In this document: positions 29,501-58,400 of the stretch, in pieces
Position numbering within the stretch: the first letter of the stretch is position 1
How the letters are laid out: each line of letters begins with the position of its first letter
NCBI GenBank assembly: GCA_024397995.1
Contig: CP073746.1
Span: 1,984,001 to 2,048,000, forward strand
DNA length: 64,000 nt
Source: a bacterium SCSIO 12827
GTDB taxonomy: Bacteria > Pseudomonadota > Alphaproteobacteria > Rhodospirillales > Casp-alpha2
Direction: 5' to 3'
Notes under the pieces: model-generated
Seen by the model: the letters and a program-made list of their open reading frames with translations, nothing else
The model's database searches: none
Told to the model about the DNA's origin: nothing
Position numbers and translations under genes: made by a program

Positions 29501-29914
29501 TTAGGTGTGCATCTCGAATGTCTTTCCATATGCTTTAAACGCCTCGGCATAGGCGGGCACGGCCTCGTTGATCCGAGGGTCATCTTCAGCGTTCTGGATC
29601 ATGAGCGCCGCCGTGAGTTTCGGGACATCGGCTGTCATCGCAGCGCGACCGTAATAAGGAACAGCGACAGTGCGCGCGTCACCCATTTCGACCGCAAGGG
29701 CGTTGACCACTCCGCCCCAGAAATGGAACCCTGTCGCGCCAAGCCTGCCGGTCGAAAGCGCGTGGGAGTTTATGAAGCGTGCCCCATTCAACAGATCGGT
29801 GAAAAGTTACTGCTTGTCTAGCCGGCTTTGCATACCCTTGCCGTCCTCGTCCTTTCCGGGATAGCCACCGACCCGATAGGCCTGCTTGACACAATTCACG
29901 AATGCCTCATCATC
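29501..29914 (-). pseudogene. Dienelactone hydrolase family pseudogene
   Basis: Two reading-frame pieces of an alpha/beta dienelactone hydrolase are visible. The upstream piece (about 29815-29914) reads DEAFVNCVKQAYRVGGYPGK and ends at a stop. The second (29501-29791) reads STGRLGATGFHFWGGVVN, then PLMIQNAEDDPRIN-like sequence (ALMIQNAEDDPRINEAVPAY) and ends EMHT. The family nucleophile motif GxCxGG is altered to GFHFWGG, so the catalytic Cys/Ser is gone, and both ends of the protein are missing. It is decayed and not expressed as an enzyme. Confidence 0.8.
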
Positions 29915-30053
29915 CTAGTCATGATCGGTCCTGCGTAGAGTTTTGATTCATCCCCGCGACGCCTTCCACCTTGCTCAAACTTGCAGGAACTTGATTTCAC
30001 CTGATTCCCATAGGTTGACCCCTGGGTTTTTGGGGCTGCGCTTTGCGCAAACA

Positions 30054-30087
30054 AAAAGCCCCTAACCTTTTGGTTTAGGGGCTTTTT
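30054..30087. terminator. Bidirectional terminator, relic of the initiator tRNA-Met gene
   Basis: AAGCCCCTAACC and GGTTTAGGGGCTT pair around a short loop, with A/T runs on both sides. On the minus strand it directly follows the CCA end of a tRNA-Met relic (30091-30110), as a native tRNA terminator would. A decayed version lies at 43222-43258 and a trace at ~31964-31974. It may still terminate transcription between the pseudogene and the MscS unit. Confidence 0.75.
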
Positions 30088-30090
30088 TGT

Positions 30091-30110
30091 TGGTTGCGGG
30101 GGCACGCAAC
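30091..30110 (-). pseudogene. Initiator tRNA-Met acceptor-end relic
   Basis: On the minus strand the sequence ends in TGCCCCCGCAACCA, the acceptor end of bacterial initiator tRNA-Met, followed by its terminator. Only about 20 bases remain and the T-arm is lost. With 31977-32007 it brackets MscS unit copy A. Confidence 0.5.
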
Positions 30111-30249
30111 CACATTTACTTTCTCCCATGGTCACTTACTTCAGGATTAAGACGGTTTTTCATCCGTCTTATCCCATCGACCACATCACGCATACTTAAG
30201 CTGAGATGCCATCACAAGTTTATGGCCATTGACTTATGTACAGCCCCCG

Positions 30250-30400
30250 CCCATATCTCAGGAATGTTGGTACACGAAGATCATTTTCGGTTTCTTCTTC
30301 TGACCCGCCTGTTTCCCCGGGCGGTTTAGGCGCGTTTACGCCTGTCGCACCTCCTGGGGCTTCCTCATCACCTTGAATTGAGCGCGTGATCATCGATCAT
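30250..30400 (+). promoter_or_regulatory. Conserved structured leader of the MscS unit (copy A)
   Basis: Upstream of the 71-residue gene two small hairpins are conserved between both copies of the unit: CCGCC/GGCGG (30305-30324) and AGGCG/CGCCT (30328-30343). The loop of the second differs by one base in copy B while the stems are unchanged. It may be a promoter-proximal terminator/attenuator or a structured 5' leader; no known riboswitch family is recognised. Confidence 0.4.
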
Positions 30401-30413
30401 GCGAGGAGCGATC

Positions 30414-30629
30414 ATGACCAACTTCCACATCCCTTACGATCCTGACCCGAATATCAATCTGACTCAAAATTGCTCTGCCCAATTTAGCGGTCGCTGTCTG
30501 TTGGCATCTGCCAACATTTTCGAGCGCCTCGCCACGGCAACGCCCCCCTCAACTGCGCGCGATATGGCTCAAGGCAAAACGGGTCTGGTCATCTGCGGCT
30601 TCTCCGGCGACAGCCCGAGACTTTTGTGA
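30414..30629 (+). CDS. Small conserved protein of unknown function, MscS unit (copy A)
   Basis: 71 residues from ATG 30414, with GAGGAG five bases upstream. It begins MTNFHIPYDPDPNINLT and has the same length as its copy at 41656, with no insertions. Many differences are amino-acid-conserving, which argues for real coding. Shared features are PYDPxPxINLTxN at the start and RDMAQGxTG plus PRxL at the end. There is no signal peptide, membrane helix or known family. It precedes a zinc-ribbon gene and an MscS gene. Confidence 0.7.
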   Translation: MTNFHIPYDPDPNINLTQNCSAQFSGRCLLASANIFERLATATPPSTARDMAQGKTGLVICGFSGDSPRLL

Positions 30630-30705
30630 CCGCCGCAGAGGTCACTTTCTCCAACCAAACGAAACTCACCCTGTCATCGGTCCTCTCGTGTTTCGGAGCG
30701 AACAC

Positions 30706-30945
30706 ATGGTTATGTATGCATTGCGCGAGACATGCGCTCGCTGCAACACCACTTTATCCTTTGCTGCGGCCAACAGATGTTCGTTTTGCCACAAAGCACT
30801 TTTCTTGAACTTTGGATCGATCCTCATCATCTGCCGACATTGCGACAGGGAACTTCCACGCGCGCACGCCGGTCGGTGCCTGTTTTGCACCACCACTAAC
30901 TTACATAGAACCGAAGCCATCTCCGGAGAAGGATGCGTACAATGA
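30706..30945 (+). CDS. Double zinc-ribbon small protein, MscS unit (copy A)
   Basis: 79 residues from ATG 30706, with GGAG seven bases upstream; this start matches copy B. Four CxxC knuckles are seen: CARC, CSFC, CRHC and CLFC, enough for two zinc ribbons or one four-knuckle fold. A hydrophobic stretch (FLNFGSILII) separates the pairs. Its stop overlaps the MscS ATG (ATGA), so channel translation is coupled to it. It could be a metal-responsive or protein-binding partner of the channel. I know no characterised homolog. Confidence 0.75.
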   Translation: MVMYALRETCARCNTTLSFAAANRCSFCHKALFLNFGSILIICRHCDRELPRAHAGRCLFCTTTNLHRTEAISGEGCVQ

Positions 30946-31874
30946 GCGCGAAACGGCATATGCAACGCCTTGTGTGGCCAACTATCCTGGCAACCGTCAA
31001 CTTCGGTCTGATTTTCTTTCGGTCTGATCTTAGCGATCATCTTGGAAATGACGAGACGCTCTGGCTCTGCATCAACGCCCTGGCATATTTCGCGGTTGCG
31101 TGGTTCATCAGCCGCGTTCTGTCGATCGCGCTCGATAAGACAACAGCGCATCGGCAACCCTACCCGCGACTCTTAAGAGAAATCATAACGGCGCTTTTGT
31201 TTCTGGTCGCACTCGCGGCGACCGCCGCGCTTTTCACAGGACAGGGTGCAGTTGGCGCGCTTGCCGGGTCAGGGCTTGTTCTCGCCATGTTCGGCTTCGC
31301 CATCCGCAACGTCGTGGCCGATACGCTGTCCGGAATTGCACTTGGTATCGAAGCTCCTTTCCGCATCGGAGATTGGATCGACATCGACGGGATGGCGCGA
31401 GGGAAGGTCATCGAGATCGGTTGGCGCACAACGCGGATCTTAACCCGTGACGCCACGTACATGATTCTCCCGAATAGTCAGATCGCGCGTCAGCGGATTA
31501 CCAACTATTCTGCACCAAAACCACATTACCGCGCACAGATCGCCATCACCCTTGACCACAATATGCCGATCACGCGAGCCCGTGAGCTCATGTTGAACGC
31601 GTTGAAGGAGGCAAAGCTCATTCAGCAGGACCCGTTGCCGGACGTCCGCGTTCAGGCCTATGAGGAAGGCGGCATCACTTATGCTTTACGCTATTGGCTT
31701 TCTCGCTTCGACCGCGACATCGACTGCCGCGATGAGGTCTTTAGTCTTGTCGACGACGCACTGCGCCAGGCCGGAACCATTGCACCATACAGGCGGATAG
31801 AGTTGGTTGGTCCCGCGATACCTACCTGTGCCACGCGGGGAAAAGACGCAGGCATGTTTTCTGAATATGGCTAG
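30942..31874 (+). CDS. Small-conductance mechanosensitive channel (MscS family), copy A
   Basis: 310 residues from ATG 30942, chosen because of the ATGA overlap and AAGGA eight bases upstream. Membrane segments lie at ~12-30, ~41-62 and ~82-100, followed by the pore helix region GAVGALAGSGLVLAMFGFAIRNVVADTLSGI (~103-133). The MscS beta domain follows (PFRIGDWIDIDG, GKVIEIGWRTTRILTRD, ILPNSQIARQRITNYS), then the C-terminal alpha/beta cage. It should open under membrane tension to release solutes. The last ~20 residues differ from copy B. Confidence 0.93.
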   Translation: MSAKRHMQRLVWPTILATVNFGLIFFRSDLSDHLGNDETLWLCINALAYFAVAWFISRVLSIALDKTTAHRQPYPRLLREIITALLFLVALAATAALFTGQGAVGALAGSGLVLAMFGFAIRNVVADTLSGIALGIEAPFRIGDWIDIDGMARGKVIEIGWRTTRILTRDATYMILPNSQIARQRITNYSAPKPHYRAQIAITLDHNMPITRARELMLNALKEAKLIQQDPLPDVRVQAYEEGGITYALRYWLSRFDRDIDCRDEVFSLVDDALRQAGTIAPYRRIELVGPAIPTCATRGKDAGMFSEYG

Positions 31875-31976
31875 CGCCTAATTCTCAGTGCGCGAGCCAC
31901 GCTTACCCAGATGCATCTCAACCGGCACCAACAGTAAAACATGTCCGCTTAATAGAGGGATATAGGGGGCTTTTAT

Positions 31977-32007
31977 TGGTTACAGGGCAGGAGTTGAACC
32001 TCTCCCT
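31977..32007 (-). pseudogene. Degenerate initiator tRNA-Met 3' relic
   Basis: Minus-strand sequence GAGGTTCAACTCCTGCCCTG followed by TAACCA and an A/T-rich stretch resembles a decayed T-arm and acceptor end. It is followed by a trace of the same GGGGC terminator seen at 30054. It ends right at the 3' end of the racemase-like gene. This is the weakest of four such relics. Confidence 0.4.
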
Positions 32008-33093
32008 TCAGACGATCAATCTGCTGATTTTTGCCTCGTCCCACTCCAGTCCGATACCGGGTTTATTCGGCACGTCAAAGGCGCCATCAACGACCTTGGG
32101 CGGCTCGACAAGAATGGCATCCGCCCAATCTACATATTCAAGCCAATGGGCCGTTGGTGTCGCGCACAGCAGATGCGCGCTGATCTCGGGCAATAGATGG
32201 CTCGACAATTCCAGGCCGCGCGCCGCAGCGATACCGGCGGCATGGATCCATCCCGTAACGCCGCCGATACGCACCGCATCCGGCATGACCCAATCGGCAG
32301 CACCGGCCGATATCGCGTCCGCCATTTGCCGTGGGCCGTCGAAATTCTCGCCGATCTGCAGCGGCACCTCCAAGGCGTCCGCAAGGGCGCGGTTACCTGC
32401 CCAGTCATCATGGCGGATCGGCTCTTCAATCCAGTAGATGCCTTCCGTTTCTATTGCCCGCCCCCGCGCCATCGCATCAGCGACGGTGAGTGCCTGGTTG
32501 TAGTCAACCATAATGGCGATTTCGTCGGGAAGCCGATTACGAACCGCGCGCAGGACGGCCAAGTCTTCTCTGAGCGTCGGATGACCAAGCCGCAGTTTCA
32601 CGCCCTTGAAGCCGCCTTCCAATAGCGCCTCCGCTTCATCCGCGGCGGCCTCCGGCGGCATTAAGCCCAGGCCGCTTGAATTGTAGGCCGGGACCGGCCG
32701 GGGGCTCGCCCCCAGCATCGCCGCCAGCGGCAGACCGGCCGCCCGGGCATTCGCATCCCAAATCCCCATGTCCAGGGCGGCAAGGGCCATGCGCGCGGCG
32801 CCAACCACCCCTAAAAGGGCAAACCGGCGAGCGAGCAGATCGCCGATAGCAACGGGGTCAGCCGTCATTCCCTTCACGACCTCAACCGCATCTTGCAAAA
32901 GAGCCGCAATGGCAACGCCGCCGCTGCGCCGGTAGGTAAACAGATAGGTCCGGCCGGTCACCCCTTCCCTTGTATGAAGATCGACAAGCAAAAGCGGAGC
33001 TGCCGTTACCCTTGCCGCGCTGGTTCCCAGGGCGAACCGTAACGGCACGTTCACTAGGCGTGTGGTCACGCCTGTTATCGTAAGTAGATCCAT
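32008..33093 (-). CDS. Mandelate racemase-subgroup enolase superfamily enzyme
   Basis: 361 residues from ATG 33093, the usual length for the family; an AGGGGA precedes it and the longer frame to 33222 would overlap the TRAP gene. It aligns from memory with mandelate racemase along its length: VNVPLRFALGTSA, metal ligands in IMVDYNQ, WIEEP and IGEN, and the His/Glu region SSHLLPEISAHLLCATPTAHWLEY. The base motif KxK of mandelate racemase reads KLR here, so the second Lys is replaced by Arg. It abstracts a proton alpha to a carboxylate; the product could be a racemised or dehydrated hydroxy acid. It is the last gene of the TRAP operon. Confidence 0.9.
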   Translation of the reverse strand: MDLLTITGVTTRLVNVPLRFALGTSAARVTAAPLLLVDLHTREGVTGRTYLFTYRRSGGVAIAALLQDAVEVVKGMTADPVAIGDLLARRFALLGVVGAARMALAALDMGIWDANARAAGLPLAAMLGASPRPVPAYNSSGLGLMPPEAAADEAEALLEGGFKGVKLRLGHPTLREDLAVLRAVRNRLPDEIAIMVDYNQALTVADAMARGRAIETEGIYWIEEPIRHDDWAGNRALADALEVPLQIGENFDGPRQMADAISAGAADWVMPDAVRIGGVTGWIHAAGIAAARGLELSSHLLPEISAHLLCATPTAHWLEYVDWADAILVEPPKVVDGAFDVPNKPGIGLEWDEAKISRLIV

Positions 33094-41034: not shown

Positions 41035-41281
41035 ACCTCCGAACCGCACCTTGGGACAAATCAGGGACAATTGGAGTCGTAAACGTTCATAAACGATCGC
41101 AAATGACCATATTCCATCGCATTGTAATTGCGATATTTTTTCCAAATCAGCACAGCATGTAGCGGTTAAACGCAAGTCTTGAAAACCAGCAAGGGTTAAC
41201 GCCCTTCGTGGGTTCGAATCCCACCCCATCCGCCATTATTTCAACGGCTTAGATAGAAATCACCACCGATTTAATTGTACC
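41035..41281 (+). repeat. Direct repeat copy B ending in a tRNA-Ser 3' fragment (candidate att site)
   Basis: This matches 22014-22260 at a constant offset. The tRNA-like part is 41178-41235. The variable arm differs from copy A in a paired way: AAGGG-TTAACG-CCCTT here against AAGGA-TGCAAG-TCCTT there, so the stem is kept. The 5' half of the tRNA is again absent. It starts 36 bases after the Rieske reductase stop and marks the right border of the 19-kb interval. Confidence 0.8.
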
Positions 41282-41346: not shown

Positions 41347-41655
41347 TCGTTCATCCTTCTCAAGGTCAGAATGCGCCAAACCCTTTCAAACGTCCTGGAT
41401 CACTTTTAGGGAGTGAGATCAAACCACTTCACGGATACTTAGGCTGAGACGTCATCTCAGGGCATGACCATTGACTTGTCCATGGCCCCCGCCCATATCT
41501 CAGGGATGTTGGTCCATGAAGATCATTTTCGGTTTCTTCTTCTGACCCGCCTGTTTCCCCGGGCGGTTTAGGCGCGTCTACGCCTGTCGCACCTCCCGGG
41601 GCTTCCTCATTACCTTGAAATGAGCGCGCGATCATCGGTCACGCGAGGAGAGATC

Positions 41656-41871
41656 ATGGCCAACATCCAATTTCCTTACGACCCAAACCCGAAAATTAAT
41701 TTGACTCGAAACCGCCGTCCCCATTTTGGCGGGCACTGCCAGATGGCATCTGCCAACAATTTCGAGGGCGTCGCTGCGGCAACACACCCCCCATTTGTGC
41801 GCGACATGGCCCAAGGCAGAACGGGTCCGATCATCTACGAGTTTTCCGAAGACGGCCCTAGAATGTTGTGA
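41656..41871 (+). CDS. Small conserved protein of unknown function, MscS unit (copy B)
   Basis: 71 residues from ATG 41656, equal in length to the copy at 30414. It reads MANIQFPYDPNPKINLTRN and ends IIYEFSEDGPRML. Substitutions relative to copy A are frequent, yet the frame and length are kept, so the gene appears to be under selection. No motif or localisation signal is recognised. The ribosome site GAGGAG lies upstream, as in copy A. Confidence 0.7.
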   Translation: MANIQFPYDPNPKINLTRNRRPHFGGHCQMASANNFEGVAAATHPPFVRDMAQGRTGPIIYEFSEDGPRML

Positions 41872-41946: not shown

Positions 41947-42186
41947 ATGACTACGTATGCTTTGCGCGAGACATGCACTCGCTGCAACAACGCTTTGCCA
42001 TTTGCTGCGGCCAACAGATGTCCGTTTTGCCACAAAGCACTTTTCTTGAACTTTGGATCGATCCTCATCATCTGCCGACATTGCGACAGGGAACTTCCGC
42101 GCGCGCACGCCGGTCGGTGCCTGTTTTGCACCACCACTAACTTACATAGAACCGAAGCCATCTCCGGAGAAGGATGCGTACAATGA
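41947..42186 (+). CDS. Double zinc-ribbon small protein, MscS unit (copy B)
   Basis: 79 residues. Knuckles are CTRC, CPFC, CRHC and CLFC. The first ~25 residues differ from copy A at several positions, whereas the C-terminal ~50 are identical in protein. GGAG precedes the ATG and the stop overlaps the MscS start, keeping the coupling. Function is unknown; zinc binding is inferred from the four CxxC pairs. Confidence 0.75.
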   Translation: MTTYALRETCTRCNNALPFAAANRCPFCHKALFLNFGSILIICRHCDRELPRAHAGRCLFCTTTNLHRTEAISGEGCVQ

Positions 42187-43094
42187 GCGCGAAACGGCAT
42201 ATGCAACGCCTTGTGTGGCCAACTATCCTGGCAACCGTCAACTTCGGTCTGATTTTCTTTCGGTCTGATCTTAGCGATCATCTTGGAAATGACGAGACGC
42301 TCTGGCTCTGCATCAACGCCCTGGCATATTTCGCGGTTGCGTGGTTCATCAGCCGCGTTCTGTCGATCGCGCTCGATAAGACAACAGCGCATCGGCAACC
42401 CTACCCGCGACTCTTAAGAGAAATCATAACGGCGCTTTTGTTTCTGGTCGCACTCGCGGCGACCGCAGCGCTTTTCACAGGACAGGGTGCAGTTGGCGCG
42501 CTTGCCGGTTCAGGGCTTGTTCTCGCCATGTTCGGCTTCGCCATCCGCAACGTGGTGGCTGATACGCTGTCCGGAATTGCACTTGGTATCGAAGGTCCTT
42601 TTCGCATCGGAGATTGGATCGACATCGACGGGATGGCGCGCGGAAAGGTTATCGAGATCGGATGGCGCACAACGCGGATATTAACCCGTGACGCCACATA
42701 CATGATTCTGCCGAACAGCCAGATTGCGCGCCAGCGGATTACAAACTATTCCGCGCCAAAGCCACATTACCGCACACAGATCGCCATCACTCTTGATCAT
42801 AATATGCCGATCAAGCGAGCCCGCGAACTCATGTTGGACGCACTGAAGGGGGCGACGCTGATCCAACAGGACCCATTGCCGGACGTTCGCGTTCAGGCCT
42901 ATGAGGAAAGCGGTATCACCTACGCCTTACGCTTTTGGCTTTCTCGCTTCGATCGCGACATTGATTGCCGCGACGAGGTCTATAGTCTGGTGGACGATAC
43001 ATTGCGCCGAGCCGGTACCACCGCACCATATAGGCGGATAGAGCTGGTCGGTCCCGCGACACCTGCCTGTGCCGTACAACATCCGGACACCTGA
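42183..43094 (+). CDS. Small-conductance mechanosensitive channel (MscS family), copy B
   Basis: 303 residues from ATG 42183. Nearly identical to copy A through the membrane part and beta domain (one Ala to Gly change in GIEGPFRIGD), with more substitutions in the cage domain (LMLDALKGATLIQQD) and a different, shorter C-terminus (PACAVQHPDT). The membrane topology is as in copy A. The start is set by the ATGA overlap. Having two functional-looking paralogs 11 kb apart suggests either heteromeric channels or redundancy after duplication. Confidence 0.93.
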   Translation: MSAKRHMQRLVWPTILATVNFGLIFFRSDLSDHLGNDETLWLCINALAYFAVAWFISRVLSIALDKTTAHRQPYPRLLREIITALLFLVALAATAALFTGQGAVGALAGSGLVLAMFGFAIRNVVADTLSGIALGIEGPFRIGDWIDIDGMARGKVIEIGWRTTRILTRDATYMILPNSQIARQRITNYSAPKPHYRTQIAITLDHNMPIKRARELMLDALKGATLIQQDPLPDVRVQAYEESGITYALRFWLSRFDRDIDCRDEVYSLVDDTLRRAGTTAPYRRIELVGPATPACAVQHPDT

Positions 43095-43450
43095 AGGCCT
43101 GCTGCTGACGATCACCGAAATCTCTACCGGTTAGCTTAAATTCAAGCCTTCTGGATAGCCCCACAGTAGCCCACGCACAAAACCGCCTTAGCGGTTTCCC
43201 ACTGAGACGTTAGCCTTGAGTAGCAAAAAGCCCCCTAACCTGATGGCCTAGGGAGCTTGAATTTGTTGGTTGCAGGGGCAAAATTTGGACCTGCGCAGTC
43301 TACGCTCGGGCCTTCCCGGCTCGTGCTCAAACACACCTTTCATTGCATGATTTCTTGACGCTCTCAGTCTTCAAGTTCTTCTCCTTCGGCTCATAACCCG
43401 AGGCCCAAGTCAGACCCGTTCTAAACTCAACAAAAAAAACCCAGAGTCGT
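43095..43450. other. Intergenic scar region with terminator and tRNA relics
   Basis: No gene. A hairpin AAACCGC-CTTA-GCGGTTT lies at ~43172-43190. A decayed AAGCCCCCTAACC hairpin is at 43222-43258. A tRNA-Met relic at 43267-43300 reads, on the minus strand, GGTCCAAATTTTGCCCCTGC then AACCA, with a damaged T-arm. The order relic-terminator on the minus strand matches 30054-30110. The giant gene's terminator begins at 43430. Confidence 0.55.
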
Positions 43451-43466
43451 TTACTTTGACTTCTGA
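43430..43466 (-). terminator. Rho-independent terminator overlapping the giant gene's stop codon
   Basis: On the minus strand CAGAAGTC and GACTCTG pair with one bulge, followed by GG and a run of eight T. The TAA stop at 43451-43453 lies in the loop, so the terminator stem is partly coding. It ends the secretin-giant operon. Confidence 0.75.
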
Positions 43467-46400
43467 GCGTTCTCGCCTCCGAACCGCCAATTTTGCGCCA
43501 GGGTGCCCGTAGTTTTGGCGCAAGTGCTCAAGGTCACTCGTGTTCCGTCCTGCCAATTGCCGCCACGGGCGCCCAGGCACAATTTGCTGTCCTGATGACG
43601 CAGACGGAATGCCCGATCAGTGGCAGGCCCCTTCGGGGTCTTGCCCGGCCCATTCCATAGAATCTCGAACTTCTGCGACGGACTATTCACCAGGCACGGC
43701 GCAAGAACCGCCGGCTTGCCGCCGCCGGCCACGGGCAAGGTCAGGCAGGCACCCGTTTCCTCGGCGCGCAGGGTGCCGTCGTCATAGCGGGCAAAGAGCG
43801 TCTGCCGCCGCCCGCTCCCGTAAGCCCTCAGCGTCACCCGACCATCCCGCTTGGCAACCGGACCGCTGATGCACATGTCGTTGCCGCCATTCAAGGTCAG
43901 ACCACGCCACCCTGCCATCGCTTTGGCCCGGGGCAGTTCGGCCATGGGCCGCCAATCCTGATCCGGCTGGCTGGACTTGTCCGCGCAGGCCGCCAGGGTC
44001 AGGCCGTTGCCTGCCGTCGCCTGACCTTGTTGCAGGGCGATGCAGCGTTTTTCCGCCACATGCTCCAATCGCAGGGCCCGCCCGCCGTCGGCGGCCTTGG
44101 GCGCCGCCTTGCCCTTACCAGTCCAATGCAGGCGCAGGCGTTGACGCGGATCGCGGTAGGAACAGGTTTCCCAAACCGCCGGCATGCGGTCGTTCTCGAA
44201 CGCGAGACACAGGCCGCTGGCATCGTCGCGGAAACTGTCGTCATCGAAATAGGTGAACCGGTCGGCACCGTCCAGCGCACAGGGCTGGATCGTCGCCGGG
44301 CCGCCGGCCTTGTTCGTCGGTCCGGCTAGGCAATGCCAAGCCTGCGCGACGGCGACAATCCCGGATAGCGGTCCGACCGGGGCCGCGCGGTAAGGCGCGA
44401 CCCAACCCTGCAGGCCCATGAAGGTATAGCCGCCCCGGCCCTTGTCGCCGCCGTATTCCCGGTCATCCACGGTCAGAAGATCGTCGCCGGTCTGATTGTG
44501 CCGGTAACGGCGCAGGGCCACGGCCCCCTTGGTTTCGTCCGCCAGCACGTATCCAAGGACACCGTCGAAGGCATAGCCGTCCTTGGCGAACCGGTAATCC
44601 AGGAAATCCGTAACATAAAGGTGCTGATCGCGGCCGGCATGACGATAGCGGTACAGAGGTCGCGTCTTCGCCGCCCGCTTGGGCAGGATCGTGCCCTGGG
44701 GAATCTCGATCTTGTAGCCTTGTTTGCCCGTTTCCCAATCCGCGGGGCCCAGCTTGAATACATGCGCCGCGCGGTTGCCCGTGCGCGCATAGCGCACCAG
44801 GGGCACCGGATCCGACGCGGCGACGGAACCCTCCATCCCCGGCGGCGTGAATTCGGGTCGTTTCGTGGTCAGGGTGAAGGCCTGCAGGTCGGGATCGCTG
44901 GTGGCGCAGGCATAGGCCCGGGTTTCAACCCCGTCCTGGCCCGAAGCATCGGCGATGCCCAGGCATTTTCCGGAGTCCGCATGGCTGATCCTGTGGGTCT
45001 TATCCCGCGCCGGTTTACCCAGGGTCCATTGTTGCGACCGCGTGTAGTCGCAGCGGTCGACGGTCACCGCCGCCCCCTTGGCCCCGCCCTTGCCCGGCGC
45101 CCGCAAGCTGAGGCACAGGCCGCTCGCGTCCTGGCGCAGGGTGCCGTCCTGCCACAAGGTCAGCGCATGCTTGCCGTCCTCCTTGCCGCAATAGCTGGAC
45201 AACAGCGGCCCGCCGTCCGTCCCGTCCGCATCCAGACAAGTCAGATTGCGATGGGTCGCGGCGAACAGAGCCTGATGGCCCTTGTCCGGCGTTTCGTCAT
45301 AAGGCGGCACCCAGGCGACGACGCCGTCATAGGCATATCCGTCCTTGCCCGCCTTGCCGCCGAGTTCGTCGGCATCGGCTGTCAGAAGATGATCGCCCCT
45401 CGCCTTATTGACGTAACGATGCAGGGCCACCGCGTCCTTGCGCTCGGCGCCATAGGCGAAGCCGACCCAGCCGTCATAGGAGACAGTGCCCTTGGCGAAG
45501 CGGAACTCGTGGAAGTCGCCCGTATAGATGGTGTCGCCGGTCTTCGTATCCTTGTAGCGGTAAAGCGGCCGTGTGCCCGGCGCACGGGTGGTGAAGATGA
45601 AGCCCTGGGCGGCCTGCATCTCATACCCGTTCTTGCCCAATCCAAAAAGTTCCGGCCCCGCCTGCATCAGGTGATCGCCCTTCCCGGCCTTGGCCGCATA
45701 GCGAATGAACGGCACCGGATCCGACGCGGCGACGGAACCCTCCATCCCCGGCGGCGTGAATTCGGGTCGTTTCGTGGTCAGGGTGAAGGCCTGCAGGTCG
45801 GGATCGCTGGTGGCGCAGGCATAGGCCCGGGTTTCAACCCCGTCCTGGCCCGAAGCATCGGCAATGCCCAGGCATTTTCCGGAGTCCGCATGGCTGATCC
45901 TGCGGGTCTTATCTCGCCCTGGTTTACCCAGGGTCCATTGTTGCGACCGCGTATAGTCGCAGCGGTCGACGGTCACCGCCGCCCCCTTGGCCCCGCCCTT
46001 GCCCGGCGCCCGCAGGCTGAGGCACAGGCCGCTGGCGTCCTGGCGCAGGGTGCCGTCCTGCCACAAGGTCAGCGCATGCTTGCCGTCCTCCTTGCCGCAA
46101 TAGCTGGACAACAGCGGCCCGCCGTCCGTCCCGTCCGCATCCAGACAAGTCAGATTGCCATGGGTCGCGGCGAACAGAGCCTGATGGCCCTTGTCCGGCG
46201 TTTCGTCATAAGGCGGCACCCAGGCGACGACGCCGTCATAGGCATATCCGTCCTTGCCCGCCTTGCCGCCGAGTTCGTCGGCATCGGCTGTCAGAAGATG
46301 ATCGCCCCTCGCCTTATTGACGTAACGATGCAGGGCCACCGCGTCCTTGCGCTCGGCGCCATAGGCGAAGCCGACCCAGCCGTCATAGGAGACAGTGCCC

Positions 46401-49400
46401 TTGGCGAAGCGGAACTCGTGGAAGTCGCCCGTATAGATGGTGTCGCCGGTCTTCGTATCCTTGTAGCGGTAAAGCGGCCGTGTGCCCGGCGCACGGGTGG
46501 TGAAGATGAAGCCCTGGGCGGCCTGCATCTCATACCCGTTCTTGCCCAATCCAAAAAGTTCCGGCCCCGCCTGCATCAGGTGATCGCCCTTCCCGGCCTT
46601 GGCCGCATAGCGAATGAACGGCACCGGATCCGACGCCGCCTCGGCGACCTCCATCCCCGGCGGCGTAAAGCGGGGCTGATTGGTACCGGCCGACCAGGTC
46701 TGGACATTGTCGCCGGGCGCCTTGCAAGATGTCAGAACGGCGGCGACGCCGTCCTGACCCGAGGCGTCGGCCAGGCCCAGGCATTTTCCGGAATCGACAT
46801 GAACGATCTGCATGGACCGGGTCGGGTCGGCGGCCTTGGGCGCTGTGCCCTGCCAAGCCGCCTTGAACTGCTGCGCCCGCGTATAGGCACAGCGCGCCAA
46901 CGTCACGCCGGCCTTGTCCGCATTCAGGCAGAGCTTGGTGCCGTCCTTGGTCCCGCCGTCGAAACGCAGGGTGCCGTCCCGCCAGAACGAGAACTTGGGC
47001 CTGTCATGATCGTGGCAGAAGGACGCGCGCACCGCCGCGCCCACTTTGGCCGCGCCGTCCAGGCAGCTCAAATTCTTGGCCGTCGCCAGGTAAAGGCCCG
47101 TGTAGCCGTCCGTCGGAGCTTCCGGATAAGCCGGGGCCCAGGCAGCGATACCTTCATACGCATATCCGGCGCGCCCGACCTTGCCGCCGAATTCATCGAA
47201 ATCGGACGTCAGCAGATGATCGCCCCGAACCTTGTTGACGTAGCGGTGGAGCGCCACCGTTCCCGGCTGCTTGTCCGCGTGCAGATACCCGGCGATCCCC
47301 TGGTAGGCGTAACCCGATGCGCCGTATCCCAGTTCGCGGAAGTCAGGTGTCCAGAAATGATCGCCCGTGGCCTTGTGGTGATACTGGTAGAGGGGCGCCG
47401 TACCCGCCGCCCGTCCGGCCCAGACATAGCCCTGCGCCGTTTCCATGACATAGCCGTCCCGTCCCAGACCCAGGGCATCCGGTCCCACGGTCAAGCGATG
47501 GTCGCCGCTTTTCGATTTGGCGCTGACATATCGGATCAGCGGCTGGGAATCAGCGTTGACCATCGGCGCGTCCGCCCCCGGCGCGGTAAACGTGGGCACG
47601 CCGCCATGGGCCCACCAAGTGCCCCGGCGGTCGTCCTTGGCGAACTTGCCGCAGGGCGCCATCACGGCGGGCACGCCGTCGCGGCCCGATCCGTCGGCCA
47701 AGGTCAGGCACGCCCCGGACAGCCAATGGGACAGCTGCATGGCCGTACGCCCACTGGGCTGTCCCGGCGCCTTACCGCCCTGCCACACAGGCGTCCAGCG
47801 CTGGGCCAGACTGTTGTCGCAGGCCGCAATTTCCGGCGGTGCGGTGCCCGCCCGATCGGTCGTCATGCACTTGCCGCCGCTCAGGTCACGCAGCGTGCCA
47901 TCGGTCCAGAACGCCAGGGGCTGATCCCCCTCGTCCTCGCAGCGGCGGGACGACAGACTGCCGCCTCCGTCCCGGGTCAGGCACACCATGCCGTCCCGGT
48001 TGGCCAAGTGAACTTTGGCCCAACCTTTGCGAACTTCCGCGCCAGTGCCCGGGGTATAGGCGGCAACGCCTTCGTAACGATACCCGTTCTTGCCATTGGC
48101 GCCGTCCAGTTCGTCCCCATCCGTCGTCACCAGGTGATCGTGGCGGGATTTGTTGAAGTAGCGGTGCAAGGGCAGCAATCCCGGTCCCTTGGCAGCCTGG
48201 ACATAACCCAGCACCCCGTCAAACCGATAGCCGTCCGAGGCGAACCGCAATTCGTGGAAATCGGCGGTGTACATATGATCGCCGTCCTTGGCCGCGACAT
48301 AGCGGTAGAGCGGCACCAGGTCCGCCGCCGCGCGGGTCGCAAACACCCGGCCCATGACGACGTCGGGCAGGAAACCGTCCTTGCCCCGGCCCAATTCGTC
48401 CAGCCCCAGCACCAAGCGATGATCTCCCCCCTTGGCCTTGGGATTGACGTAGCGCACCAGCAGTTCCGGGTCCGACGGCCGCACCGGCACGTCCGTGCCC
48501 GGCAGGTCATAGGCGGGAACCTCTTGACCTGCGCTCCAGAACTGAACCCCGGCCTTGCCCTCTGCCGCGCATTTCACGAGAACGGTCTCGACCTCGTCGC
48601 GGGCGCTGTCGTCGGCCAACCCTAGGCATTTGCCGCTCTGCCGATGAACGAGTTGGAAGCGGGCCGCCGGGTCCGGACGCGACGGTTTCTTGCCGCTCCA
48701 GCGGACATCCCATTGCTGGCCCGGCGAGTAATCGCAGGTATAAATCCCAACGTTGGCCGCATTGCCGCTTTGGCTGTTTGTGCCCAGGCACAAATCCTTG
48801 GGATCATGGCGCAGGGTGCCGTCGGACCAGAAGGTGAACCGCATGTTGCCGTCGTCGGCGCATAGGCGCGAGTCGAGTTCGCCGCCGTCCTGAGCCTGCG
48901 CGTAGAGGCAGCTGAAGTTCCGGTTGGTCGCGACATAAAGGTTGCGGAAGGCCGGCGACGGCGTCTCGTCATAGGCCGGAACATGGGCGATTATCCCGCC
49001 GCCCGCATAGCCGCTCTTGCCCGCGAACGCTCCCTTGTCGACGGTCAAGACATGACCGCCGTTGTCGCGGGTGTCGAACCGATGCAGCGGCACCGTCCCG
49101 GACCGCGCGTCGGGATAGACGAAGCCGGCCAGGCCCAGATAATCGAACCCGTCGCGACCGAACAACAGATCGCGAAAATCGGTCGTATAGCGGCGCACGT
49201 GGCTTTTGCCCCGGCCGTACTCGTAGAGCGGCACCGTACCGGGTGCGCGGGTCTTGAAGATGCGGCCCTGGGCCTGCTCGATCACCAAGTCACCCTTGCC
49301 GGTACCATAGGTTTCGGCCCCCGCGACCTGCACGTAGGCGCCGGGTTTCTTGTCGCGGTAGCGCACGAAGGGCACCGGCTTCGATGCTTTTTCCGGCTGC

Positions 49401-52400
49401 TCCAACCCCGGCGGGGTGAACGGTTTCACCCAGCCGATGACCCCCTGATAACGATAGCCGTCGCGACCCCGCTTGCCGTCGAGTTCGGCGAAGTCGGTGG
49501 TGACCCGCGTGTCGCCCGTGGCCTCGTTGACATAGCGATGAAGGGCGACCGTTTCCGGTCCTTCCTTGGCCTGGACGTAGCCAAGGATGCCCTCATAAAC
49601 GTAGCCGTCGGTCCCGTACCAACGTTCCGAAAAATCGGTCGCCACGTAGGTGTCGTTCCTGGATGCGCTGAAATAACGGTAGAGCGGCACCGTGCCCTTG
49701 GCGCGCTTCGGCCAGATGTGTCCCAGATAGCGGTCGGGCACATAGCCGCCCGCCCCCCGGCCGAATTCCTTGTCCCCGGCGGTCAGGCGACTGTCGCGGG
49801 TCTTGGCGTTGACGTAGCGGGCCAGGATCACCGGCGTGGATTGCACCACCGGTGTGTCGGCACCGGGTGCTTGGAATTCCGGCACCCAGCCGACGACGGA
49901 CTGTGCTGTATACCCGGGCTTGGTGTCTCCGTCCCGCGCCAGCATATGTTCGCGATTGGCCGACGAATGATAAAGGCGCAGCGCCACCGTGCCCGGCCGC
50001 TGCTTGTCATAGATCCAGCCGGCGATCCCTTGATAGGTCCATCCGTCCTTGCCCCAGGCCAGACCGTCGAACTTCGTCGTGTAATAGGTGTCGTTATTGG
50101 CCGCGTGGAAATAGCGGTACAGCGGCACCGTATCCTTGGCCTTTTTGCTGAAGATCATGCCCAGGGGTTTGTCCAGGACATAGCCGTCCGCCCCCTCGCC
50201 CATTTCCCCGAACCCAAGGGCGATCACGTGATCGCCGGTGCCCGGATGGTGATAGCGCAACATCATCTCGGGCTCGGACTTGACCGCCCGATCCTTGGCT
50301 CCCGGCGGCGTGACGGCGGGAACCCAGCCCTCGACCTTGACGTAACTGAAGCCCTTGGCGCCCTTCTTTCCACCGAACTCGTCGATGTCCGTGGTCAGCA
50401 GATTGTCGTTGCTCGCACCGTTGCGGTAGCGGTGGAGCGCCCGGCTGCCCTTCTGTTCCTTGGGATAGACATAGCCTTCCACGGCGACGAACTCGTAGCC
50501 GTCCTTGCCGTACCACAATTCCTGGAAATCGGTGGTGAAGATGTGGTCCTGCTTGGCCCCGTTCCAGTAACGGTAAAGCGGCACCGTACCCTGAACCCGC
50601 CCCGGGAAGATGGCGCCGGCGACGCCATCGCGGACGTAGCCGTCACGGCCGTCACCCAGCTGCGCCGGGTCGGCGGTGTACAGATGGTCGTTTGCCTTGG
50701 GATTGAAATAACGCAGCAAGGGCACGGGATCGACGCGCACGAGCTTAGCATCCTTGCCCGGGCCGTAGTCAGGCCCCGGGTAATGGCCCAGCCCGATATT
50801 CTTGCCGTACCGGCGCTGGATGATCGGCAGCGTGCCCGGTCGCTTGTCGGGGAACACATATCCGGCAATGCCCGCAAAATAGATTTCCGGCGAACCATAG
50901 CCATATTCCTTGAAGTCGCCCGACAGGATGTCAGGCGCCTGACGGCGACGATTCTCGATGCGGCCGTACAAGTATAGCGGCATCGTGCCTTCGGCCGGCT
51001 TGGGGAAGACCTGGATGTTCTTGTCGAACGCCAGGGGCACCGGGTTCGACGGTTCCACCGGCGGCGTCAGCGGCGGCTCTTCCTTGGGCAGGTACCCGGC
51101 GGTTCCCTCGAAACGCCAGGGCCCCCTTGGATTGCGCCCCAGCTGGTCGATGTCGCCGGTGTAAAAGTAGTTGGTGTTGTTGCTTTCGTGATAGCGGAAG
51201 AACGGCACCGTGTTGGGGATGTCCCTGTTGTAGACGTATCCCGCCACACCATCGAAGCTGAAGCCGCGCTGACCGCCTCGGAATCCGTTGGGCTCGGTCG
51301 TGTAGACGTGGTTCTGCCCCTTCCGCGCCGTTCGCCAGAAACGGAACAGGGGCACGGTTCCGGGCGCCCGCTTGTTGAAGATCATGCCGACCTTGCCGTC
51401 ATAGGCCCAGCCGTCGCGCCCGTTACCGAACTGTTCCGGATCGGCGGTATGGTAGTATTCGTTGGTGCTGCGCTTCCAATAACGCATGAACGGCACCGGC
51501 GGATCATTGCTGACCGGCGCCTTGTAAGCGGCCTCCAAGGCCTTGGCTTCCCGGTCGAGCGCCGGATTGACCACACGTCCCTTGAACGGGTCGAAGGGAA
51601 GCCAAAGATCCGTATGCTTGTCGCCGACGCGCCCGCATCCCCAAAGGACGATCTTTCCCCGATCGATGGCCAGGCAGGCCCCGCCGCTTCCATCCTTGCG
51701 GTGCGCGATGATCTGCCCCGTTGTCAGAAACTCCATCTTCAACACCGACGACGAACTGCAAGATTCCAGCGATACCACGCCGCCTTCATGGTACCTGCGG
51801 GCGCCCATGCAGCCGCCTTTCACGTTTCGCAGGTATCCATCGCCGTAGAACCGCCAGCTTTGATTCCATTTGCCGTGGCAGCCCCACGGAATCAGATCCA
51901 CGCCTGCCTGGTCTTTTGCACCTCGGATGTCGGCGCACCAGCCTTTATCGCGGTTCGCAATGGAATAATGACGCAGCAGGAAATTATCAGGAATCCAGCA
52001 GCGCTTGAGGCTGTCGCTCCAGCGCTCGCTGCCCCGGCAGTCAGACGGCCGCGGGCAATCGCCCAGGCGCAGCAACTTGCAGTCCAACGACTTCAGCCCC
52101 TTGATGATTTCTCCCGCCAAGTTTCCGACGGCGCCGACCACCACATTGGCCGCGTTCGCCACGTCGCGCAGGCCCTGGGCCGCCACATCGACCGCCGCCG
52201 CCGCCATACCGGCAACACGGCTACCGCACTGCAAAGCGTCCTTGGGCGACGGTAGGGAGATTTTCGGCTGAAACTTGACCGCCTGGATGAAATCGATGGG
52301 CAGGGCCGTTCCCTGATTGACCTTGAGCGCGAGGTTGCGGATGTCCCCTGCCCCCATGGTGGTCTGAGAGGAAAAGCGCGCACAAGGATGGGTCGAGCGG

Positions 52401-55400
52401 AACGAGACGTTGGTTTCCGTCAAGTCGCCATCCAGATTGAAATGGATCGAGTCCTTGAAACCCAGCGCAGCCGTCGACATGTCGAGCTTGATCTTATGGC
52501 TGACCCCGGCCGGGTTCAGTTCGTAGTGCAACGTGGTTTCGCTGCGCGCCAGATTTCCCAGCACGCCGAGCGGTAGACCGACATTGATCTCGGTTTTTGA
52601 ATCGAGCGTCAGCCCCGATTTATTGTCAAGATAGGCCGTCGTTTGCGAGAACGGCAGCCCCAGGGCATTGAGCTTGCCGGTGATCTTGAAACGGCTCGAC
52701 GTATCCCGTTCCGCACTCAGGCTGGCGCTTTCCAACGACACCAGCCCCAGGTTGATCTTGCCCAACGCGAAGGGGTGATCGATCAGATAGGCAAAGAAGC
52801 TTTTCCCCATGGCGTCGCCGATGGCGGCGGCGGGCAGAACCTCAACCGGATTGCTCGACGCCCAGGCCGGCTTGACCTTGGCCACGGCCGGTTCCTTCAT
52901 GCGCGTGCCGAAGAAGCTGTGATCGATCTCCAGCGTCACCTCGCCGCCCTTGAGGAAGTCCACCAGCTTGCCGCGGAACTTGGCGCCATGGATGAAGATC
53001 GGAGTCGACGATTTGATGGCGTCGAACACGACCTTCGGAATGCCCATGCGGGGGAAGACTTCGTCCGAGATCAGCTTGTCGATCTCCGTCTTGGTATCGG
53101 CCTCGACCAGGAACTCACGTGCGCCGAGCACATCCCCGCTGTCTGTTTGCGCCAGGAACCTAGTCTTGATCAGGCGGCCCAGGTCCCGTTCCAGTTCGAA
53201 ATGGATGCGATCCTTGGAAAACTCGATATCGATGTTTTCCTTGGCGCCCAGGAAATTGGTGTTCCCCGATACCTTGAAATGGGGCAGTTGCTTGATGTTG
53301 GCGACGATGTCGACTTTGGCATTCTGCACCTTGAGAATCGGCGGCAAGGTGATGTCGGCAAGATCGCCTTTCAAAATCAGGCCATCCGACAGGGTCAGAC
53401 GCAGGTCCGCACCGCCCAGGCGTTTCTTGTTGCCGAACAAGGACATGTAAGCGCCGCCGCCGACGCGCATGCCCATGGTATCCAGCGTATCGTCACGCCC
53501 GGGAATCTTGGCCCCCGGCGTGGCGAAGAAGATGACCGGATCGACGACGCTCAAGGTCGGCAGAGGCAGTTCATCCACGCGGATGATGTCGAAAATGCTG
53601 CGCTTGAGGATTTCCGTCTGGAGGTACTTGGCGGCGTCGCGGGATTTCTTGTCGGGCAGGACCTTGAGAACCTCATTGGCCATCGGCCCGCCCAGGACAC
53701 CCTTGAAGTTGGCCTCCATCATTTCCAGCGACGTCCATTGGCTCAACTCGCCTTTGACCTTGTAGGCGACTGCCAGTTTTTTCGGCAGCGGGATGGAGGT
53801 AGAGAAGTTGATGTTGACTAGGAAATCCGCATCCGCCGTTACCGTGCGGTCCTGTTTGCGGCCCAAACCGGTCACGATCGCCGAAGCCCCAACACCGAAT
53901 TCAACGCTGCCTTCGGAATCAAATCCGATCAGGATCGCTGGGTTTCGGAAGGTGTGGTTCTTTGAAATTCCAAACGGCTGATGCCAGTCGCCCCGCATAT
54001 TAGCCGCCAGCTTGAAACTGCCGGCCCAGGACACGGCGTCGAACGACGTATACAGATCACCGCCGAACTTCAGCTTGTCGGACTTGGTCGGCGTGCTCAG
54101 GCGCGGCACGTCCAGGGTGATGTTGCCGTTGACGCCAAGGCCCATCTGCAGCTTCGGCACGTCGACGAACAGGAAGCCCTCGGCGCCGACGTTGTCGATG
54201 GACACCAGTTGGCGCCAAGGCTGGCCCTCGGGCAGTTTGAAATTGGGCAGGCGCGCGTCCAGGCGCGCTTCCAGGTTGCCGTCGAACACCCCCTTCAGGC
54301 TACCGGCCAGCAACAGCGGCCCATCCACCGCCTTGAAGATGTTGACGTCGCGGGTCGCGACCTGGCGGATCGCCGACGGCAGGTTTTCTTCCGACAGGGC
54401 CGCGATCAGGGACACCCCCGCGCCGAACGGTAGGGTGCGTTTGTCCCCACCCGATTTCGGCATCAGCCCCTCGACCATGGACAGCAAGCCTGACGGCAGG
54501 TCCCCGACGGGGACATTCGACAGATCCGCCGTGGAAATGGCGAAGACCGATTCAGGCAGGGAAATCTGGGCCGCCCCTTCCAACACCTGCTTGAACTTGC
54601 TGGCCGGGCCCGAGTTACCGACCAAGTCGGTGATCTTGAACGGGTCCGCCTTGACCAGGGCAATGGGCTTGCCGCCGTGCAGGAAGATCGCCCCCTCACC
54701 GCCGATGCCCAACTTGTCGATACGCACCTTGCCGCCCAGGCCACCGGTGCCGATCCACAGATTGGCGAAACTCAGCTCGTTGATGCCCTTGAGCCCGCCG
54801 ACCAGCGGCAGTTTGGCGACGTCGATCTTGCCGGGGATCGTGAACCGCAATTCCGGGGCGGCATTGGACTTGAGGGTCAGGGAACTGACGGCCTCGAACT
54901 CCTGCTTGTCGAGCCGCGCCATGGTTGAAAGCGATGCATCCAACAGCGCCCGGCCCTCCGCCGTGCGCTCGATGGCGCCGCTCAGGGCCAGATTGTTCAG
55001 CCCCAGGAACGGCAGACCGAAGGCCTTGTCCCAGTTCACCGTGGAGGTCGACCGCACGGCCAGCCGGAACGCCTTTCCGCCCGTGGTCTTTTCGATGTCG
55101 ATGCCGCCGTCGAAGGCCAGCGCATGCCCCGGCAGGTTCAAGATCAGGTCGCCGGCCATGCCGACGCGCAACCTGACCTCGCCCGTGGACTGGCCCTTGA
55201 TATCGGTGACCGGCGTGCCCTTGATCAGGAAAGTCGGTGCGCCGAGTGTCAGCACCTTGTCGATGCCGGGCAGGTTGATGGCCGGCAGGCGGGCTTCCAG
55301 ATCGACCGCGGCGACAGCCTGTTTCAAGGCATCGCCGCTCAACCCCCGGCCGGCGCCGCCCGGCCGGGATGCCAGCGCGATAGACGGCAGCACCCCGGCG

Positions 55401-58400
55401 ACCTCCAGGGTATCTTCCTTGACCCCGACGAAGGCCAGGGCCTTGGCCAGGGGGCTCTCGGCCTTGGGTTCGACAATGAAGCCAGCGCGCAGCCCCTGGG
55501 ACGGCGGCAGCGCGCCGCCGCGCGACACCAGTTTCAGCGCCGCCGTGACACTGTCCGGATAGGCGTCGTTCTCAGGATACGCGTCTTTCTCGCCGGGCAC
55601 GTAGACCAACGCCCCCCGGGTCAGCTTGGCATTGTCTAAAGGCGTGCCACGCACACCCGGAATAAAATCAGCGGCATCCACACTTTCCGGCACCAGGGCG
55701 ACGAAGGGTTTCTTGTCCTTCTTGAAATCGAACACGGCCAGGGTCGTCTGAGAGCCGCGCAACTGGACCGTGCCGGAAATGACTTCCGAGCCGATGCGGG
55801 CGTCGGTCAGGGCCAGATCACCGATCCCGGGCACCGACGTGCCGATCAGGTCCTGCACGGTGATGTCCGACGCCACCGCCAATTGCAGGCGAGGGTCGGC
55901 CTTGTTCAAATTGACACTGCCTGTCAGACGCAAACGGTCGCTGCCGCCCTCCACATCCAGGCCGACACCATCCACCCGTGCCGCAAGCCGCAGGCTGCCC
56001 GCGAGGGCCAGCGGTGACACCCCCGGCAGCGTGACCTGCATGTCGCCGGTGATTCGGGTCACCAGGGCGACCTTTCCATTCTCCGACACCCCCTGAATAC
56101 GCAGAATGGGATCGTCAAAGGCGACCACATCACGGACACCCGGCAGGTTCACAGCCGGCAGCTTGGTTTCCAGGTCAACTTTCTGAACCAGGCCTGCGAC
56201 AGCCTCTTTGGCGCGGGTCTTGATGGCGCTGTTACCGCCACCGCCGCCGCCCGACACCAGGGATTTCAGCGCCTCTACCGGCAACACGCCCGATAGTTTC
56301 AGCGGCTGCCCACCCCCGCTGCCGGTGAAGGCGAACATTTTTTTCAGGGCCGGCAGATCGCTGGGCTTGAGGAAGCTTTTCAGGTTGAGGCCGGGGCGGA
56401 ACGAGGACCCACCGCCGCCGAAGGGATTGAGCAAGGGGCCGACGGCGGTTTTCACCTTGTCCGGTAGGGCCGCCACGTCGAACGGCAATCGCAGGGAGGT
56501 GCCGTCACCTGATCTGCCGGGGATGTAGGTGAACACGGCCTGCGGCAATGTCAGGCCGGCGATGGGCGACGACCCCAGGCCGGGAATGAATTCGGACGGC
56601 TTCAACCCGGCGGCGGATAGCGTCACCGCCCAGCGCCCTTCCGTGCGGAACGCGCCGACCGTGGTCTCGAAGCCCTTCAAGGCGATCTTGGCGACCAGAT
56701 AATCCGTGTCTCGTTCGACCTCTTTCAGGTTGAGATCGCCAATCACCGGAATGTCCACACCGAGCAGACTGGACAGGGTCTGCTCACCCGAGAACTTGAG
56801 CCTGAAATCGCGCGGTGATCCCGGCAAGGGCAGAGAGGCCTCGATAAGAGCCTTTCGTCCGCCCGGGTCGAGGGCTGAGCCCGCGAAGGTCAGCAGCCGC
56901 TTGCCCCCCTCCATCGGCTCGGTCGTGAAGGATCCGTCGCCTTCATAGACGCGCCCCGGTCCCGGCAGGGCAAAGCGGATGGAGGTATCGATGCGCGTAG
57001 TCAATCCCGTGTCGCTTCCCTTCAATGCCAGAACCGGGCGCGACGGGAAATCGATGGCCACGGGGCCGATCTTGTTGAAATTCAGGGTCGGCAGGGTCGC
57101 CGTCAGGTCGATGGCGGCGATCAGGTCCTTCCCCGACGCCGTGAAGGGATTGGCGTTGAACCGGCCTTCGATCTCGAGCGGGTCCGTCAGGCGGATGCCC
57201 AACCCGCCCAGCAGGTCCGCCAACTGGCCGCCTTGCTTCGGCCGCGCCATCAGTTCGGCATTGAAGCCGTCGCCGACCCTGGCCAGGTCGAAACGCCCGA
57301 CGAGTTCCGCCGGGAACCCGGTTTCGGACAAGGTCGCCTTGCGGCCGGGGGGCAGGTACAGGAAGGTCGTGCGTTCAAGCGTCGCCGCGTCCAGGGCCGT
57401 ACCGGCCACGGCGGGCAGGACCTGGGCTATATCCAGGTTCGCCGCGACCACAGCCAGGGCCGGCTTTTTGTCGCGGGCGAAATCAAAGGCCGTAGCCTGG
57501 AACGTCCCGCCCTTGACCATGATCTCACCACTGACCAGCCCAGCGCGAACGGCGGCCTTGGTCAGCGCCACATCCGACAGGCCGGGCACGTTCAGACCCA
57601 TGACATTGGCCAGGGTCAAGCCTTCGCCGTCCAGGGCAAGCGCCAGATCCGCCTTGCGCCCCCCGGCCGTGGCCAGCGATCCGGACAGGGTGAACTGCCC
57701 CGCCACGTTGTTCAGCCGCCCGGTGCCGTTGACCGCCGCTGCCAGATTGCGGCCCGCATCCAGGGTGAGCGTGATTTCATGGTCCAGGCTGCCCGACGTG
57801 GGCGTGCCCGGCAGAACGAAGTCGAAGGCGCCGGTGATTGCCGTGGTAAGGGCCGCGCCGTTCGCACCCTCGCCGCCCGTCAGCTTGATCTGGGCCGCCC
57901 GTGACGACAGATAGTCACCGACCCCCGGCAACTTGATCGCCGGAACCGGAATGGTGAGGTCCGTTTTCTGGATGATCTTGGCGACCACCGTCCCGGCCAG
58001 TTTCTTGGCCTTGGCCGCCGCCCCGCCGGACCCACCACTTTTACCCTTGGGCAATTTGCCGCGGATGAAGGCAAGCGCCTCGCCCGGCATGACCGCCTTC
58101 AGCTTGAACGGTTTGCCGCCACCGCCGGCCCCCAGTTTGGCCAACAAGTCGGACAGCTTGCCCAATTTGGCCGGATCAACGGCCGACACCAGGTTGAGGC
58201 CGGACAGCAGCCTGCCGCCGCCCGACGGTCCGGACAGCTTGCCCGCCAGATGCCTGATCCCCTCCGGCAGTTTGTCCAGGGCCAAGCCGTCCCCACCGCC
58301 GCCGCCGAGTGTCGGCAGATAGGCGAACACGAGATCACCCAAACGAACATCCGCCAGCGGCGTTGCCCCCAGGCCGGGAATCACCGACAGACCGGGCAGG

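Follow-up and report, generated by a model that had tools for sequence, protein, structure and literature searches.

The window analyzed here is a stretch of 64,000 nucleotides from the genome of the alphaproteobacterium SCSIO 12827, and positions below refer to it. Two copies of a unit lie in the window at 30.2 and 41.4 kb, in each of which a leader, an ORF of 71 codons, a gene for a 79-aa double zinc-ribbon protein (ZnR) and a gene for an MscS channel follow one another in the same order on the forward strand. A preliminary description of this DNA had reported this arrangement, the ATGA overlap between ZnR and MscS, and four CxxC knuckles in the 79-residue protein, and we confirm all three in both copies, with the CxxC pairs at C10/13, 25/28, 43/46 and 58/61. 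In copy 1 the leader contains an ORF of 21 codons (30264–30329) encoding MLVHEDHFRFLLLTRLFPRAV followed by a stop codon, which has 15 relatives on Rhodobacterales plasmids. The 71-aa ORF (30414–30629), ZnR (30706–30945) and a 310-aa MscS (30942–31874) follow. In copy 2 the leader ORF (41506–41571) encodes an identical peptide and is followed by the 71-aa ORF (41656–41871), ZnR (41947–42186) and an MscS of 303 aa (42183–43094) with a C-terminal tail unlike that of copy 1. A single 6113-aa ORF with long near-identical internal repeats adjoins copy 2 on the reverse strand (43451–61792).

These two copies are the only ones that a genome search identified in the 3.93-Mb genome. A third is found in a genome of the same genus, Rhodospirillaceae MAG SAT42 (contig PALN01000082.1; G001), which keeps the order leader, 71-aa ORF, ZnR and MscS, with identities to copy 1 of 61% for the 71-aa ORF, 71% for ZnR and 92–93% for MscS. 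When 150 genomes taken as relatives were searched, a set that includes that of the window, ZnR was found only in these two, and it is absent from the other six same-genus genomes listed. Of 385 genomes in a class-wide pattern search, which sampled few genomes per family, two matched: the one that holds the window and a doubtful AT-rich one (G368). A scan of genome contigs with two short exact patterns, by which distant relatives are missed, yielded one ZnR relative from 66 candidates, and no relatives were found among viral contigs. In G001 the MscS frame is open upstream through ZnR, giving 380 codons (L004, 569–1711, reverse strand); the window copies differ in this respect. By eye, the genes beside the G001 unit (L030, 11621–17248) look like copper oxidases and a 765-aa nitric oxide reductase, and may serve denitrification.

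Divergence between the window copies is uneven. A tract of about 460 nt (approximately 30780–31240 in copy 1 and 42021–42480 in copy 2) is nearly identical, and the remainder is about 70–98% identical. On both sides of this tract copy 2 is mostly nearer to G001 than to copy 1. Because the middle is near-identical while the flanks of copy 2 are nearer to G001, the alignment indicates gene conversion between the two window copies. When the two copies and G001 are aligned together, identity is 92–98% in the leader, 66–88% in the 71-aa region and 78–98% or more over most of MscS.

Selection on the three genes was assessed with a neutral test in which the observed number of substitutions was placed randomly on the inferred ancestor in 4000 runs. 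MscS shows 25 amino-acid changes against 78.5 expected, and none of the runs was as low; its dN/dS (NG86) is 0.08–0.09. ZnR shows 24 changes against 29.6 expected across the three genus copies (P 0.037; dN/dS 0.33–0.58), and all eight cysteines of its four CxxC pairs are kept. The 71-aa ORF has 49 changes against 50.3 expected (P 0.42; dN/dS 0.59–0.70), and it stays stop-free in 27% of the neutral runs. Given neutral changes and this frequency of stop-free runs, the intact frame is poor evidence for a protein. The 71-aa ORF changes much as near-noncoding DNA would and probably does not encode a functional protein. The preliminary description had argued from kept length and frame that both small proteins are probably functional, with dN/dS near 1 as the sign to the contrary; this does not hold for the 71-residue protein, which agrees with the neutral expectation, and the objection does not apply to ZnR, which is weakly constrained.

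The edges of both copies carry tRNA remnants. At the left edge of copy 1 a cut tRNA-Met(CAT) gene is represented by its final bases (30088–30104, reverse strand). The flank that ends there (29853–30104) is 87–93% identical to the DNA beside an intact tRNA-Met in G007 and G001; the window retains just the end of that tRNA, after which the unit follows. To the right of copy 1 lies a degenerate tRNA-Met 3' end with its terminator (31963–32011, reverse strand), in the same orientation as the left remnant. Copy 2 is bordered by remnants of two different tRNAs: a tRNA-Ser(TGA) truncated by about 13 bases at its start (41161–41259, forward strand; 91% identical to the intact tRNA-Ser locus of the genome) and a tRNA-Met 3' end/terminator remnant (43224–43295, reverse strand). 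An ORF on the reverse strand (29501–29791), to the left of copy 1 and close to the tRNA-Met remnant there, resembles by eye a fragment of a dienelactone hydrolase. The earlier suggestion of a mobile cassette is partly supported because copy 1 sits between tRNA-Met 3'-end repeats, and it is also favored by the occurrence of three copies in three contexts and by the grouping of MscS with plasmid genes of other orders. Against it, one of the repeats is degenerate and no integrase or recombinase was recognized by eye among window ORFs of at least 250 aa. The remnants are consistent with insertion at tRNA sites followed by decay.

The MscS of copy 1 scores above the curated Pfam cut-off in both domains (PF00924, 69.0 bits against 20.2; PF21082, 30.6 bits against 21), with E-values of 3.7e-19 for MS_channel_2nd and 4.7e-7 for MS_channel_3rd. 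It is 73% identical to an MscS on a Defluviimonas plasmid and 48–58% identical to those on Alloyangia, Roseibium, Roseinatronobacter and Cereibacter plasmids. In its own order, the best matches outside the genus unit are about 33–38% identical. Of 32 plasmid records with E-values up to 1e-45, 11 were opened, together with all six other genome loci at the same limit. In a tree of 28 rows, in which the fragmentary rows G134, G087 and G010 are poorly placed, the window and G001 proteins group with Defluviimonas (99/98) inside a 15-row clade (100/100) that consists mostly of plasmid genes and is separate from the MscS of the own order. Because it groups with plasmid homologs from Rhodobacterales and Hyphomicrobiales, the window MscS was probably acquired horizontally.

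ZnR accompanies this MscS clade. Using a stop-free CxxC-x8..13-CxxC pattern no more than 900 nt upstream of MscS, we identified ZnR in 14 of 16 clade loci (the 15-row clade, with the window copies, plus a truncated Sulfitobacter gene, L076) compared with none of 22 more distant MscS loci. In random stretches of all collected loci, many of which include ZnR itself, the pattern occurs in 185 of 3000. The two exceptions are L076, which has IS21 genes upstream, and G390. The pair was present in 11 of 13 loci beyond the genus, which refutes the possibility, raised in the preliminary description, that it does not co-occur elsewhere. A 4-nt start/stop overlap joins the two genes at 8 of the 14 loci (both window copies, G001, Defluviimonas, C. 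sphaeroides IL106, C. azotoformans, Nitratireductor and Phyllobacterium). The shared core of ZnR is approximately CxxC-x4-P-x-A-A-x2-RCPxC; the proteins of the window, G001, Defluviimonas, Alloyangia, Roseibium and Sulfitobacter also have a second ribbon. Two CxxC...CxxC ribbons are also the feature of the Pfam families DZR and DZR_2. However, the best Pfam score (16.3 bits, DZR_2, copy 2) is below the curated cut-off of 27, and we therefore describe ZnR as ribbon-like and do not assign it to the DZR family. The quality of the AlphaFold models obtained for ZnR and MscS was too low for use (mean pLDDT 52 and 37).

Genes of the Rnk family often occur nearby. The fullest operon, in Defluviimonas and Alloyangia, consists of the leader, an Rnk-like gene, rnk, ZnR and MscS. 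In Roseinatronobacter and Cereibacter the ZnR–MscS pair is preceded by rnk. On plasmid pA of the laboratory strain Cereibacter sphaeroides 2.4.1 a zinc-ribbon ORF lies between rnk and MscS, which makes the pair accessible to study there. The Rnk-like family is related to Rnk (profile comparison probability 96.4%). By tblastn, Rnk-family genes are near MscS at 9 of the 13 loci beyond the genus, on the opposite strand at two of these (P. denitrificans and Phyllobacterium), and none was found at Roseibium, G454, L076, Nitratireductor, the window units or in a 19-kb stretch around the G001 unit. A chromosomal Rnk-type gene, far away from the unit, is retained in both the window genome and G001. 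The 71-aa ORF was considered as an Rnk-like remnant and rejected, as only its position is in common: one of nine DNA comparisons with Rnk-like genes (copy 1 with Sulfitobacter) beat all 100 shuffles, a result not seen in copy 2 or G001, and none of 12 protein comparisons stood out. It would instead be a spacer at the place of the Rnk genes in relatives.

This context allows two readings of ZnR. It may act on the transcription side, together with Rnk/GreA-like factors on RNA polymerase, and stand beside MscS only through a shared stress operon. The frequent Rnk-family neighbors point this way, as do three Sulfitobacter plasmids on which rnk–ZnR occurs and the 7-kb stretches read contain no MscS, an arrangement that also counts against a partner role. 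However, no Rnk gene is found on the same strand at the ZnR–MscS loci of Roseibium, Nitratireductor, Phyllobacterium, P. denitrificans, G454 or the window genus, and the 4-nt overlap ties ZnR to MscS. We consider the transcription-side reading rather unlikely. Several lineages retain the pair with no Rnk gene on the same strand, and for this reason we favor a role for ZnR as a partner or assembly factor of MscS.

The leader was described previously as a set of hairpins. These hairpins overlap the 21-codon ORF, and the leader-peptide element had been missed. The leader consists of a TTGAC promoter, the ORF, and three segments that could form mutually exclusive helices. In copy 1 the promoter-like sequence (30229–30257, forward strand) consists of TTGACT (30229–30234) and a weak -10 box, CATATC (30252–30257), at the spacing seen in relatives. 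Helix A (30305–30324, forward strand) would be formed by segment 1 (30305–30310) and segment 2 (30315–30324), and segment 3 (30350–30359, forward strand) could instead pair with segment 2 as helix B.

A covariance model built from the three genus leaders matched those of Defluviimonas and Alloyangia. Peptide searches returned 11 and 10 plasmid records, all from Rhodobacterales except one Sphingobium match that is probably due to chance. In total, 18 leaders contain the core: the three in the genus and 15 on Rhodobacterales plasmids, the sample outside the genus being mainly plasmids. The first annotated or readable gene is Rnk-like or rnk behind 12 of the 15 plasmid leaders, where site 1 of S. 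indolifex was assigned by likeness of its start sequence to other Sulfitobacter sites. About 600 nt separate the leader from the Rnk-family gene in Loktanella and Roseinatronobacter. At three second Sulfitobacter sites a hypothetical protein comes first, followed by rnk in two of the three. Second, divergent leader copies occur on the same plasmids at L061 (1298–1455) and L062 (1075–1239), both on the reverse strand and each before another Rnk-like gene. Weak matches in the own order were judged to be chance; of those inspected, two were out of frame inside coding sequence, and the remainder showed no leader-like peptide or MscS. Rfam gave no convincing match to the leader.

TTGAC lies 34–36 nt before the ATG in all 18 leaders (39 or 36 in Pseudorhodobacter, depending on the choice between two ATGs), and a -10-like box is found shortly upstream of the ATG in each. 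A strict promoter pattern matches 12 of 20 leaders, a set that includes the two chromosomal rnk leaders found in the genus, and none of 916 ATGs in the window; the window leader copies also miss it. Because of the promoter spacing, the transcript probably starts at or next to the AUG, and the leader ORF would be leaderless. A longer leader ORF of 35 codons, beginning M(A/T)IDL, was rejected since comparison with the relatives identifies its first 14 codons as promoter. Upstream of the chromosomal rnk genes of the window genome and G001 (match G000:C1:2609435; L102, L101) we observed a leaderless-looking short ORF, MNTV(M/L)H(L/F)CVILRRQHPLAGG followed by a stop, with TTGACT and TATGGC at the spacing of the leader family. 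This suggests that the rnk genes of the genus have their own peptide leader.

The peptide and the RNA are both conserved. Residues 9–15 across 14 leaders read R F (L/I) L L (N/T) R, encoded with five codons for Arg9 and three each for Leu12 and Leu13. The core residues survive synonymous change, and the median dN/dS is 0.38 (84 of 91 pairs). There are three leucine codons and arginine codons with no dominant run of a single amino acid. This short ORF is conserved at the peptide level, a feature of leader-peptide attenuators. Segment 2 is CCCCGGG(C/T)GG, or GCCCGGGCGG in one leader, and in all 18 it has two possible partners, segment 1 within the ORF and segment 3 downstream of it. The downstream pairing was equaled by 0–12 of 200 shuffles. 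However, helix B is unprovable by covariation because segments 2 and 3 hardly vary. A small hairpin of varying sequence follows or contains the stop codon in most leaders.

Conservation of both kinds bears on whether the leader works instead as a structured RNA, either as a 5' region or a small RNA, with the ORF incidental. Codons 15 and 19–20 fall on invariant RNA segments, and the available text of PMC2965389 raises the possibility that greA and rnk leaders in other bacteria act in trans. However, residues 9–13 are kept despite synonymous variation, and codons 9–35 of the longer frame have one amino-acid change where 3.9 are expected (P 0.021), making a purely structural role quite unlikely.

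We infer the following model from the conservation, spacing, possible helices and gene order, with leaderless translation, pausing, signal and output as its predicted parts. Transcription would start at the AUG of the 21-codon ORF or right beside it, and a ribosome would read HFRFLLLTRLFPRAV on the leader. An early pause would cover segment 1, so that segments 2 and 3 pair, and a ribosome reaching the stop codon would cover segment 2 and leave segment 3 free. The choice between the predicted helices would set downstream expression, in the window that of ZnR and MscS, which would be translated together via the ATGA overlap. ZnR would be a small cytosolic metal-binding partner, an assembly or gating factor of MscS, and the channel itself an otherwise ordinary tension-gated one that releases osmolytes. 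The higher conservation of the leader than of the adjacent 71-aa region in the genus was counted in favor of this model. Folding of 15 leaders did not support release of the ribosome binding site by an early pause (9 of 15; mean -0.24 kcal/mol). No intrinsic terminator was seen in 15 leaders, the longest T run being 2–4 nt, and intrinsic termination is unlikely because no T run exceeds four in any leader. Rho-dependent control or mRNA stability remain as candidate outputs.

Taken together, we propose with intermediate confidence that the unit is a horizontally acquired ZnR/MscS operon of the Rhodobacterales-plasmid type without the Rnk genes, present twice beside tRNA scars and controlled by its leader, with ZnR as the channel partner. 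Neutral change in the 71-aa ORF, weak constraint on ZnR among the three genus copies and the share of copy likeness explained by gene conversion are consistent with MscS alone mattering and the small ORFs and leader being functionless remnants, but orthologs of ZnR in several orders and conservation of the leader well above the adjacent region make this very unlikely. A broader proposal, offered tentatively and somewhat doubtful as it stands, is that the leaders form a new leaderless family of arrest-type peptides with the core RFLLL(T/N)R that controls Rhodobacterales GreA/Rnk-type factors, and was captured here for an MscS gated or assembled by a zinc-ribbon subunit. The peptide family provides a defined, testable sequence for possible stress-gene switching on Rhodobacterales plasmids. 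The mostly unannotated ZnR gene is tied to one MscS clade across several orders, and if ZnR is a subunit or regulator, metal or redox state would become an additional input to a channel known for gating by tension.

A literature search, which included few subscription journals, did not find the peptide core FRFLLL, a known MscS–ZnR pair or MscS with small ORFs in this arrangement, or reports on Rhodobacter Rnk regulators or Rhodobacterales Rnk/GreA leaders so arranged. The accessible part of a study of the D. shibae FnrL/Dnr regulon (PMC5398030) does not mention rnk, greA or mechanosensitive genes. The window MscS matches the beta and C-terminal domains of MscS from Escherichia coli and its relatives; however, a ZnR gene overlapping or adjoining its start is a feature of the window clade.

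For the leader, the RAPP-type arrest peptides (PMC7897499, PMC10987492, PMC12992588) are similar, as far as the available text describes them, in that a short upstream peptide is proposed to work through the ribosome. However, the window peptide ends in PRAV, has no RAPP/RGPP motif and does not precede protein-localization genes. Two kinds of leader are close, judged from those parts of the sources that were available. In Sinorhizobium meliloti, trpL is an attenuator ORF at the extreme 5' end of a transcript that begins with ATG (PMC7298713), as in our model, but its 14-aa peptide, peTrpL, and the trp genes are unrelated to those described here. The greA/rnk leaders (Naville and Gautheret 2010, PMC2965389) are likewise regulatory leaders before GreA/Rnk-family genes, which is also the position of the plasmid relatives, whereas in the window the leader precedes ZnR–MscS. 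They are described as terminator/antiterminator elements in Gammaproteobacteria and Firmicutes, in contrast to a leader with a conserved peptide and no terminator seen. Attenuators that move to other genes are described in the same work, and the leader before ZnR–MscS would be one such transfer to a new gene.
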